From Deminuibacter soli (GTDB lineage Bacteria > Bacteroidota > Bacteroidia > Chitinophagales > Chitinophagaceae): a DNA stretch of 64,000 bases. The position numbers were made by a program, and so were the translations under genes. The stretch is from positions 1,240,001 through 1,304,000 of the forward strand of contig NZ_QTJU01000001.1 of the NCBI RefSeq assembly GCF_003412455.1, written 5' to 3'. The notes under the pieces were generated by a model. The model did not search any database. It saw nothing but the letters and a program-made list of their open reading frames with translations, and was not told where the DNA came from. This document shows positions 33,137 to 36,307 of this stretch, piece by piece. How positions within the stretch are numbered: position 1 is the first letter of the stretch; each line of letters starts with the position of its first letter.

Positions 33137-34171
33137 ATGTCAACTACTACAGCCACACATCCGCAAACACTCACTGCAAAAGATTTTGCCACCGACCAGG
33201 AAGTACGCTGGTGCCCGGGTTGCGGTGATTACTCTATATTGGCACAGGTGCAGAAAGTAATGCCCGGTATTGGTGTGCCGAAAGAAAATATTGTGTTCAT
33301 CAGCGGTATCGGTTGCAGCAGCCGTTTCCCTTATTACATGAACACCTACGGTATGCACTCTATCCACGGCAGGGCTACAGCCATTGCCAGCGGTTTAAAG
33401 GCTGCCAGGCCCGAGCTGAGTGTATGGATTGTAACCGGCGATGGTGATTCACTCAGCATTGGCGGTAACCATACCATTCACCTGTTGCGCCGCAACTTTG
33501 ATGTAAACGTGCTGCTGTTTAACAACCAGATTTATGGTTTAACCAAGGGCCAGTATTCACCTACCTCCGAGCAGCAGAAAGTAACCAAGAGTACACCTTA
33601 CGGTAGTATTGACCATCCGTTTAACCCGCTGGCGCTGGCCATGGGTGCAGATGCAACATTTATTGCACGCAGTATGGACCGCGATCCCAAGCACCTGCAG
33701 GAAATGCTTACCCGCTCGCACCAGCACAGGGGCGCATCGTTCCTGGAGATATACCAGAACTGTAACATCTTTAACGATGGTGCATTTGAAGTATTTACCG
33801 ATAAAAGTTCCAAGGCAGAAGAAACTGTTTTTCTTGAACAGGGAAAACCGCTTGTGTTCAGCAACCAGCAAAAGGGCCTGCGCTTCGATGGACTGAAACC
33901 CGTGGTGGTGAACCTGGCCGATGGTTATTCAGCCGATGATTTGTGGATACATGATGAACAAGATTTTTACAAGGCACAGATCTTAATCCGCATGTTTGAT
34001 GATGCACGGGTAGAGGGACATTTTCCACGCCCGTTCGGTGTGTTTTACGAAACAGCGCGTGCCTGTTATGAAGATGCCCTGCGTTTGCAGATTGAAGAAA
34101 CCATTGCTGTAAAAGGCAAGGGCAACCTGGACAAGCTGCTGCGTGGAAACGAAGTATGGGAGATCGCATAA
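33137..34171 (+). CDS. korB: 2-oxoacid:ferredoxin oxidoreductase, beta subunit (KorB-type)
   Basis: Thiamine-diphosphate subunit that with KorA decarboxylates 2-oxoglutarate to succinyl-CoA using ferredoxin. 344 aa from the ATG at 33137 (MSTTTATHPQTL); the frame extends 51 codons further upstream through a tandem repeat and that part is rejected. VRWCPGCGDYSIL, FISGIGCSSRFPYYM, VTGDGDSLSIGGNH (TPP/Mg motif) and FNNQIYGLTKGQ are clear. No alpha subunit gene is adjacent, which is unusual for this family. It ends at a terminator. Confidence 0.9.
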   Translation: MSTTTATHPQTLTAKDFATDQEVRWCPGCGDYSILAQVQKVMPGIGVPKENIVFISGIGCSSRFPYYMNTYGMHSIHGRATAIASGLKAARPELSVWIVTGDGDSLSIGGNHTIHLLRRNFDVNVLLFNNQIYGLTKGQYSPTSEQQKVTKSTPYGSIDHPFNPLALAMGADATFIARSMDRDPKHLQEMLTRSHQHRGASFLEIYQNCNIFNDGAFEVFTDKSSKAEETVFLEQGKPLVFSNQQKGLRFDGLKPVVVNLADGYSADDLWIHDEQDFYKAQILIRMFDDARVEGHFPRPFGVFYETARACYEDALRLQIEETIAVKGKGNLDKLLRGNEVWEIA

Positions 34172-34219: not shown

Positions 34220-34247
34220 ATGCCGCCCTTACGGGGCGGTATTTTTT
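34220..34247 (+). terminator. Intrinsic terminator of korB
   Basis: ATGCCGCCC pairs with GGGGCGGTAT around CTTAC, followed by TTTTTT. About 50 nt past the korB stop. Confidence 0.8.
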
Positions 34248-34416
34248 ATGCCCAATGCGAAGATTTTTCGCAAAATCCTGCTCTCCCAACTGATAAAATG
34301 GCCTGCTATTACTTGATTCTGGTTTAAAAAGCAGTCTTTTTTAATGCAAAACCATTGATATGCAATGATTTAACAAGAAAATGTGGAAAATCACGCCGAA
34401 ATCGGTGTTTTTCACA

Positions 34417-34447
34417 TTGTTTTCAATTGAACATTGTTGCACTTTTG
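34417..34447 (+). promoter_or_regulatory. Promoter of the candidate small RNA
   Basis: TTG at 34417-34419, 20-nt spacer, then CACTTTTG at 34440-34447 (one mismatch from TAnnTTTG). The same 20-nt spacing is seen in the promoter at 51395-51425. Transcription would begin near 34454. Confidence 0.5.
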
Positions 34448-34453
34448 TATTGC

Positions 34454-34556
34454 TCTTAGATAGTAGTTGGTTTATCAGCTTACTATGTTAAGTTTTTTCA
34501 TTGGGGGTTATATGCTGACACAACTACGGTGGCTTTCTAGCCGCCGTTTTTATTTT
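34454..34556 (+). ncRNA. Candidate small RNA of about 100 nt
   Basis: Free-standing unit inside the 477-nt gap 34172-34648, with a promoter at one end and a perfect terminator at the other: ACGGTGGC pairs (one G-U) with GCCGCCGT at 34526-34547, then a T-rich tail. Inside, ATAGTA pairs with TACTAT, and a GTTG..TCAGC segment can alternatively pair with GCTGA..CAAC, so two folds compete. No convincing reading frame with a start signal covers it: the 61-codon frame from 34467 runs across the terminator. No known RNA family is recognised. Confidence 0.5.
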
Positions 34557-34601
34557 ATATCTATTAATCTATCTGTTATTAGGATATATAAATGCACAAA
34601 A

Positions 34602-34648: not shown

Positions 34649-35533
34649 TTAAGCTGCGTGCATTTCCTTATCTGCCTGCTCGTATATCTTTTTCTGTTTC
34701 CATTCGTACCAGGTTTGCGGCATGGTTTTTTTCAGCAGCGTATCAATGTTGCGCATACCTACCAGGTTCCACACGCCTTTTAATTTACCTGTTACAGAAT
34801 TGTTGAGTGCGCGCAGGCTCATGGCAAAACCGCTGTCGAGGTATTCCATGTGGTGCCAGTAACCGCCCGGCATAAACAGGGTATCGCCATGTTCAAGCGT
34901 AATATCAAAGCCCTGTGCAAACTGCACGGCAGGGAACTTGTTTACATCCAGCTTGCTTTTATCGTGGTCGTAATAATTGCTGAAATCAGCAAGGCTCAGC
35001 ACTTCAAAAGGTTTGCGATACAGTTTATGCTGTTCTTTATAAGGGAACAGCAATACACGTTTGCGGCCAATAAACTGTGTGTGTAAAATATGGCTGAGGT
35101 CTATATCGAAATGCATGTGTGTGATAGAGCCTTTGCCGCCGGTAAACAGCATGGGCACGCGTTTTACAAAACCTTTCATCAGGTGGTCGGGCCAGGTAAA
35201 ATCCTGGGTGAGCTGCGGGGCATGACTGAAAATGTTGAACAGGAAAATGCGCCAGGCAGCCGGGCCCTTGCTGATCATGTCTACGTATTCGCCAAAGGTG
35301 GTGTAGTCGTCGGCCTTGTTTATTGGGGTGTAAGCATCACTTTTTACATTGTTGTAGATCCCGACTTTTTTGTCTCCCACAACTTCCTTAAAATATTCCC
35401 AGGTCCATTTGTTGTAAGCTATCCATTCTTTGCTCAGGTTACGGATAACGACCGGTTTCTGAAGGTCGTAGTAGTTTTTCTTAAAATCCTCACCTGAAAT
35501 TTCATCTACAATGTCTACCGGATGTAACTGCAT
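34649..35533 (-). CDS. Cupin-8 / JmjC-like Fe(II)- and 2-oxoglutarate-dependent oxygenase
   Basis: 294 aa. Double-stranded beta-helix with metal ligands His141 and Asp143 (HMHFDID, H-x-D) and a distal His227 or His228 in FMPGGYWHHM; LLFPYKEQHKLY is typical of the cupin-8 group. It would hydroxylate a protein or small molecule using 2-oxoglutarate. It has no signal, stands alone and is read leftward from a start just downstream of the Sua5-type gene's upstream region (divergent). Confidence 0.83.
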   Translation of the reverse strand: MQLHPVDIVDEISGEDFKKNYYDLQKPVVIRNLSKEWIAYNKWTWEYFKEVVGDKKVGIYNNVKSDAYTPINKADDYTTFGEYVDMISKGPAAWRIFLFNIFSHAPQLTQDFTWPDHLMKGFVKRVPMLFTGGKGSITHMHFDIDLSHILHTQFIGRKRVLLFPYKEQHKLYRKPFEVLSLADFSNYYDHDKSKLDVNKFPAVQFAQGFDITLEHGDTLFMPGGYWHHMEYLDSGFAMSLRALNNSVTGKLKGVWNLVGMRNIDTLLKKTMPQTWYEWKQKKIYEQADKEMHAA

Positions 35534-35689
35534 GTGGTAAGAGTTTACACAAAATTAATAGTTGCTCCGCAAGTGTGGCATAGTTAAAATCTATGAACCA
35601 TAAAAGAACCACTATTTTATTCGTTAAAACAAACTGCAAATATACCGCGTTATGTATAAAATTCCGGTCATATCTTGGTAAATTGCTAT

Positions 35690-36307
35690 ATGCTTGTAAC
35701 GATACATCCTGTAAATCCGCAGCCCAGGCAAGTGAAAATGGTGGTGGAATGTTTGCTCGACGGCGGGGTGATTATTTACCCTACCGATACCATTTACGGT
35801 CTTGGCTGCGATATATTCCAGCACAAGGCAGTAGAGCGTGTTTGCCGCATTAAACAAATTGATCCGCAGAAGGCACAGCTGAGTTTTATCTGCTGCGATC
35901 TCAGTGATCTCAGCAAGTACACCAAAAGCATTTCTACACCGCTGTATCGCATGCTAAAGAACCATTTGCCAGGCGCGTACACATTTATTTTACCGGCAAG
36001 TAAAGAGGTGCCAAAAATTCTGCAGAGCAAAAAAAGCACCATTGGTTTGCGTGTGCCCGATAACAAGATTGCCCATACTTTTCTCAGCGAGCTGGGGCAC
36101 CCTATTTTATCGGCCTCCCTGCCCGGGAATATGGTAGAAGAATACACTGACCCCGAACTGATGTATGAGAACTTTAAAAACCAGGTAGACCTGGTGATTG
36201 ATGGCGGCATGGGCGGCATGATACCCTCTACGGTGATTGACTGCACTACGGACGACGATTACACGCTGATCAGGCAAGGCCTTGGCGCGTGGGATACCGG
36301 GGACTGA
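35690..36307 (+). CDS. Threonylcarbamoyl-AMP synthase family (Sua5/YciO/YrdC)
   Basis: Makes or binds threonylcarbamoyl-AMP, the precursor of t6A at position 37 of ANN-decoding tRNAs. 205 aa from the ATG at 35690 (a TTG five codons upstream was rejected). GGVIIYPTDTIYGLGCDI, RIKQIDPQKAQLSFI and SASLPGN with the late STVIDCT motif match the YrdC fold. Short YciO-like members are not always true t6A enzymes, so tsaC is not assigned. Confidence 0.85.
   Translation: MLVTIHPVNPQPRQVKMVVECLLDGGVIIYPTDTIYGLGCDIFQHKAVERVCRIKQIDPQKAQLSFICCDLSDLSKYTKSISTPLYRMLKNHLPGAYTFILPASKEVPKILQSKKSTIGLRVPDNKIAHTFLSELGHPILSASLPGNMVEEYTDPELMYENFKNQVDLVIDGGMGGMIPSTVIDCTTDDDYTLIRQGLGAWDTGD

Follow-up and report, generated by a model that had tools for sequence, protein, structure and literature searches.

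Regulatory systems that invite comparison with the locus reported here have been described in Bacteroides and in Pseudomonas. In Bacteroides, start codons are the point of action of the FopS small RNAs (sRNAs), and multicopy sRNAs are bound by RbpB, an RNA-binding protein (PMC11697453). For the regulator ColR of Pseudomonas putida, the published consensus ends in TTTTT(C/G)AC, with one site reading TTTTTTTCACATTG; the ColR sites are direct repeats, as are the sites bound by OmpR-type regulators (PMC2689224). Our locus lies in a stretch of 64,000 nucleotides of Deminuibacter soli (Chitinophagaceae; contig NZ_QTJU01000001.1, positions 1,240,001 to 1,304,000), which we call the window. At positions 34453-34557 of the window, comparison with related genomes points to a non-coding sRNA gene controlled by an activator and acting in trans through its core, a reading to which we give a probability of about one half. 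Its own promoter with operator-like sites, a core under constraint and its own terminator are each supported by the alignments. Below, G numbers denote genomes (the window genome, G000, has 5.83 Mb), L numbers the loci read and g numbers genera.

Structure of the unit and its relatives

The unit in the window is composed of the following features.

34383-34394, no strand given: upstream operator-like site GTGGAAAATCAC, differing from GTGAAAAATCAC at one position, the best site of the window unit
34404-34415, no strand given: proximal degenerate operator-like site GGTGTTTTTCAC, from the alignment and from relatives with the same geometry
34417-34419, plus strand: -33 element TTG, read in the sequence and by promoter-pattern test
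34440-34447, plus strand: -7 element CACTTTTG, read in the sequence and by promoter-pattern test
34453-34557, plus strand: putative sRNA including the T-rich tail, its start placed from the -7 element, with the terminator and conservation as further basis
34455-34492, plus strand: modelled 5' hairpin (folding model; z of the 5' part -2.1 in the window unit)
34495-34520, plus strand: conserved core TTTTCATTGGGGGTTATATGCTGACA, from core searches and alignments of relatives
34526-34547, plus strand: intrinsic terminator stem-loop, from a terminator scan and covariation in 33 aligned units

A sequence-only reading of this DNA had proposed a free-standing RNA with a TTG-N20-CACTTTTG promoter and a terminator with a T-rich tail, located between a finished korB transcript and a convergent gene. 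All these elements were found in place: 20 nt separate the TTG from CACTTTTG, the 9-bp terminator stem is followed by the T-rich tail, and the gap lies between a KorB-type gene with its own terminator-like hairpin (hairpin and T-run near 34222-34249, by eye) and a gene in convergent orientation. Absent from that reading were the two operator-like sites just upstream of the promoter, of which GGTGTTTTTCAC lies about 22 bp from GTGGAAAATCAC and abuts the -33 element.

We compiled 37 related units by reading model matches, 34 from genomes of the family and three from Foetidibacter luteolus. Their common plan comprises a GTGAAAAATCAC palindrome in many of them, a -33/-7 promoter, a variable 5' part, a conserved core and a covarying terminator. 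The strict promoter pattern was present in 19 of the 37 units against 0.2 expected and a looser one in 20 against 2.2, the expected numbers in this test, in that for the operator and in that for the promoters of operator clusters coming from mononucleotide shuffles. Between 150 and 50 nt before the core, the exact operator was found in 19/37 units (0.0 expected), rising to 21 with up to one mismatch (0.02 expected), 24 with up to two (0.58) and 27 with up to three (5.0). Members of the genera g25 and g60 either lack the palindrome or have an altered one (GGGAAATTTCCC, or just the proximal GGTGTTTTTC(A/C)C). The core is about 26 nt long, TTTTCATTGGGGGTTATATGCTGACA being its form in the closest group; what is conserved is its sequence, not a structure, and the alignments support a constraint on its letters.

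In the alignment of 33 units, in which rows G254 and G109 are misaligned, 98.9% of the terminator cells are paired, 7 of 9 pairs have changed on both sides, and such both-side changes occupy 38 cells against 7.6 in shuffles. This covariation shows a conserved terminator and nothing more special. The TTTCTA loop of the sRNA terminators was also seen in terminators of some ordinary genes (L054, L057, L069), and may be widespread in this lineage.

Could promoter-like and terminator-like letters have come together in the gap by chance, with no gene present? The terminator scan alone does no better than chance (2 found against 2.0 expected) and some ordinary genes have terminators with a similar loop, which would allow it. 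Against it, different genera retain core, promoter and operator as a set; conservation beyond the terminator had been set beforehand as one test of the proposed RNA. We regard a chance arrangement as most improbable.

Distribution of the family

The model search in Chitinophagaceae that the sequence-only reading had suggested recovered related units. A BLAST search with a 221-bp query found matches in 5 of 59 relatives' genomes, the own genome included, and the matches in G015 and G013 are real units; those in G014 and G043 are 24-base matches without the core and are not units. With the 24-nt core and up to three mismatches, 14 of 244 family genomes were matched, again including the own one, while the reversed control gave one match in the same genomes. 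Ten of the 14 matches proved to be units with a terminator behind the core, eight of them exact and two differing at one position; the other four, with three mismatches each, were judged by eye to be chance.

The exact 19-nt core occurred in 10 stretches of a species-genome collection and had zero matches in viral contigs. Carriers were two Filimonas records, a Parafilimonas metagenome-assembled genome (MAG), Chitinophagaceae bacterium DXS, a MAG named 'Bacteroidetes bacterium' and three contigs of Foetidibacter luteolus, the only one to add new units to the compiled set. Foetidibacter and Filimonas both belong to Chitinophagaceae. Matches in a Lactobacillus MAG and a Methanoperedens MAG were judged to be chance.

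Model R1 matched 128 of 394 family genomes at E<=0.01, a count not taken as the size of the family because many of the matches cover the terminator only. Model R2 matched 65/394 family genomes at E<=1e-4, and at E<=1.3e-8 it gave 34 matches in 30 genomes, only four of which were not rows of the model (G224 twice, G271 and the second unit of G134). Seven weaker family matches (L181, L182, L186, L187, L188, L189 and L191) were judged ordinary terminators. L183 and L192 were excluded as doubtful, G117 (L046) was dropped for the same reason and L050-L052 of genus g7 for a different core; G085b, G173 and the second G134 unit were retained.

In the order, R1 matched 40 of 198 genomes at E<=0.01, the best match outside the family having an E value of 1.8e-4; one outside-family match that was read, L060, has no terminator. 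The R2 search of the phylum matched 20 of 345 genomes, 18 of them outside Chitinophagaceae, and among the outside matches read (L153, L155, L156, L157, L158 and L160, one per genome) none has core plus promoter. Among the genomes searched the family thus appears in Chitinophagaceae only, the outside matches that were read being unconvincing.

The absence of a known family, noted in the sequence-only reading, was borne out: zero Rfam matches reached gathering scores in the window, and all 16 window matches up to E 10 were below gathering, none of them credible. FopS was not among these matches, the presence of a FopS model in the Rfam copy used being unconfirmed. A search of 20 loci for known Rfam families (6S, transfer-messenger RNA (tmRNA), riboswitches and others) gave four transfer RNA (tRNA) matches only at gathering score, and a tRNA/tmRNA search of the window locus gave none. 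In the literature searched, with most subscription journals outside its reach, neither a printed occurrence of the core letters nor any sRNA of Chitinophagaceae was found; the letters of the operator 12-mer GTGAAAAATCAC occur in a cancer paper. The window unit apparently belongs to an undescribed family of sRNA genes, the kind itself, bacterial sRNA, being already known.

Copies of the sRNA are free-standing, tandem or dispersed. G013 contains three consecutive units with operator-like sites and G134 two tandem units, while the three copies of Foetidibacter luteolus are dispersed. In G075 and G224, second matches occur 83 nt further on, and L047 has a related G-run element with its own terminator at the position of these second matches. 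A second G-run element after the sRNA was observed in several genera (L036, L043, L047, L049, L034 and L180), about 25-100 nt past the first terminator, for example GATGGGGGTTTTGCTTT-loop-AAAGCAAA plus terminator; there is little space for a promoter of its own.

Genomic position and RNA folding

The neighbouring genes of the window unit are as follows.

33137-34171, plus strand: upstream neighbour, PorB/KorB-type 2-oxoacid oxidoreductase beta subunit (Pfam and NCBIfam)
34649-35533, minus strand: convergent neighbour, Cupin_8 protein (Pfam)
35675-36307, plus strand: Sua5/YciO/YrdC gene, of a type that in 10 of 37 units elsewhere follows the sRNA as next gene on the same strand

The upstream neighbour matched TPP_enzyme_C at 3.6e-28 and the NCBIfam model PorB_KorB at 1.3e-74, the latter with 251 bits, below the cut-off of 262. 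Judged by termini, the left neighbour has a KorB-like C-terminus in 10 of 37 units; a same-strand gene lies downstream in 14, and in 10 it is Sua5-like by its N-terminus. These two associations suggest that the position between KorB-like and Sua5-like genes is an old one. In several lineages, the window included, the Cupin_8 gene stands between the two. Twenty-three of the 37 units, that of the window among them, are followed by a convergent gene.

The putative RNA at 34453-34554 folds better than 200 of 200 dinucleotide shuffles (z -3.5), partly because of its terminator. For the 5' part, 29 of the 37 units were given to the fold test and 28 were scored (G060 had no script-called -7 element, and the script-called -7 is wrong at least for G078); z was below -1 in 13 of the 28. 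A strong 5' hairpin was found in the window, G015, G118, G163, G081 and the three Foetidibacter copies.

The competing folds of the sequence-only reading do exist in the model of the window RNA, where the local 5' hairpin has -28.6 kcal/mol and a forced long-range fold -27.6, but the latter is minor (pairing probability 0.07-0.09) and the relatives show no excess over shuffles. Over 18 units, pairing of the 5' part with GCUGA had a mean probability of 0.39, compared with 0.48 when the 5' parts were shuffled. A contact between the 5' part and GCUG does occur in the minimum-energy folds of G207, G134a and G013b. These models lend no support to selection for a switch.

These results bear on a second possibility, that the element is a cis-acting leader or attenuator of the downstream gene. 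The 14 units with a same-strand gene, Sua5-like in 10, would suit it, as would the alternative fold of the window, weaker by just 1 kcal/mol, and the three minimum-energy folds named above. It is disfavoured because 23 of 37 units have a convergent gene after them and because the alternative fold is minor and not enriched over shuffles; the downstream genes also vary between units. A same-strand homologous gene directly downstream, as expected of a cis-acting leader, is lacking at the window unit and a same-strand gene of any kind is present in 14/37 units. An attenuator is already unlikely at the window locus, and for the family we give this explanation little credence. Between the two alternatives of the sequence-only reading, a trans-acting sRNA or an attenuator-like RNA, the first stands as the best reading, with promoter, core and terminator conserved together, and the second has lost ground.

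Coding potential

The unit had been called non-coding by inspection, and in the relatives the frame from core to terminator is indeed not preserved; a 61-amino-acid open reading frame (ORF) overlaps the window unit mechanically. The G-run could still serve a short translated ORF or leader peptide, with GGGGG and AUG as translation start, and an ATG does follow the G-run shortly in 30 of the 37 units. Nine of these 30 frames end at the stop in the loop, near the 1 in 3 of random frames, their lengths differ, and a 1-nt indel upstream of the terminator distinguishes G163 from G081, which belong to one genus. A translated product is therefore very unlikely.

A decoy translation-start site, in which GGGGG-UUAU-AUG resembles a Shine-Dalgarno sequence and start codon without a conserved frame, seems to us equally unlikely. 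Under the activator that binds the arrays described below, such an RNA would capture a minority of ribosomes with exposed anti-Shine-Dalgarno; ribosomes of the window's class are reported to hide it (PMC9976891).

Operator arrays and the putative regulon

In 13 sRNA-bearing genomes we found 142 occurrences of GTGAAAAATCAC, those of the sRNA promoters themselves included, against 5 for the reversed pattern. Of 40 operator clusters, 37, from 7 of the 13 genomes, were used; L116, L137 and L138 were dropped because the site is inside an ORF. The intervals between successive exact sites were 22 bp in 31 cases (six of them from two extra copies of one array), 21 bp in five and 33 bp in one. An operator half is joined directly to TTG-N19-21 and a -7-like element in 10 of the 37 clusters against 0.26 expected, which becomes 8 of 35 distinct clusters because L105, L142 and L143 hold the same array.

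Arrays of two to six GTGAAAAATCAC palindromes with a 22-bp step were observed before genes and abutting -33 elements in G230, G171, G163, G081 and others (for example L140 1501-1578, L141 1501-1600 and L142 60-181). Operator sites precede an RpoD-like sigma factor gene in G163 and an HU gene in the window genome. At six loci (L129, L135, L140, L145, L098 and L122) an aminotransferase gene stands on one side of the operator and that of a divergent small protein of about 120-143 amino acids on the other; the small protein, without Pfam match in the one tested, is followed by a membrane protein (by eye). Several array-adjacent proteins have no Pfam or NCBIfam family. On the minus strand of L141 (G230:C681), a gene starting near 1109, some 390 bp away from an array of five operator sites, has an N-terminus that looks Cas9-like by eye.

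Transcription in Bacteroidota generally starts 4-6 nt past the -7 element. With such a start, the proximal site would have its centre near -41 and the second one near -63; from the position near -41 we infer an activator. Since the palindrome arrays abut -33 elements and also precede protein genes, the sRNA looks like part of a regulon controlled by this putative activator.

Proposed action and targets

We propose that the activator binds GTGAAAAATCAC-like sites and that the RNA would be switched on along with the other genes of the regulon. Less certainly, the RNA may act in trans, its core UUUUCAUUGGGGGUUAU pairing with C-rich stretches of target mRNAs, where the G-run would meet runs of C. 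The core might block the translation start, perhaps by pairing at start codons; this is suggested by a CAU, complementary to the start codon, 1-4 nt before the G-run in many units (it is absent in G060, G150, G153, G085, G271 and others).

Several observations weigh against the sRNA reading. No strict promoter was found in 18 of 37 units and no operator-like site with up to one mismatch in 16; the 5' hairpin is not universal, as the 13 of 28 units with z below -1 indicate, and the core, with a mean unpaired probability of 0.50 over 28 units, is not clearly unpaired. The extended complement of the core had 332 matches in 8 genomes against 282 for the reversed control, a difference that is partly made up of the sRNA genes themselves and is no clear excess; in the own genome it had 21 against 23. 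The 10-mer TAACCCCCAA occurred 6 times in the own genome, once in the sRNA itself, against 5 for the control. With no clear excess of complements, the target step is inference only.

This result leaves some room for a non-coding RNA that binds a protein through its G-rich core, acting as a sponge like CsrB or 6S RNA, instead of pairing with mRNA. The core is kept as sequence while its extended complements show no clear excess, and RbpB, which binds multicopy sRNAs in Bacteroides (PMC11697453), would be a parallel. Zero matches to known sponge families were obtained, and the core length and the start-codon complement of many members fit pairing equally well, so we consider a sponge unlikely, though worth keeping in mind. 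If the trans-acting sRNA reading is true, the locus represents a multicopy sRNA family specific to its lineage and, with it, the DNA site bound by a putative activator; such sites are found, too, upstream of an RpoD-like sigma factor gene in one genome and of the HU gene in the window genome.

Comparison with known systems

The promoter of the unit resembles class II activator promoters of the CRP type, in which the palindrome is likewise directly upstream of the -33 region and further sites lie on the same helix face. CRP half sites are spaced by 6 bp, whereas the half sites GTGA..TCAC here are 4 bp apart, and the arrays here reach up to six sites at 22 bp. The ColR site TTTTTTTCACATTG resembles the proximal site of the window unit, and the letters TTTTTCACATTG were found in three papers, among them the one on ColR (PMC2689224). 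The arrays here are palindromic and ColR sites are direct repeats; with few shared letters, the resemblance is only a lead.

For the RNA itself, the FopS/GibS sRNAs of Bacteroides thetaiotaomicron (PMC11697453) share the start-codon action proposed here and provide a precedent within the phylum. They differ in carrying a conserved seed at a single-stranded 5' end, whereas in the present family the core comes after a 5' part that varies and often forms a hairpin.
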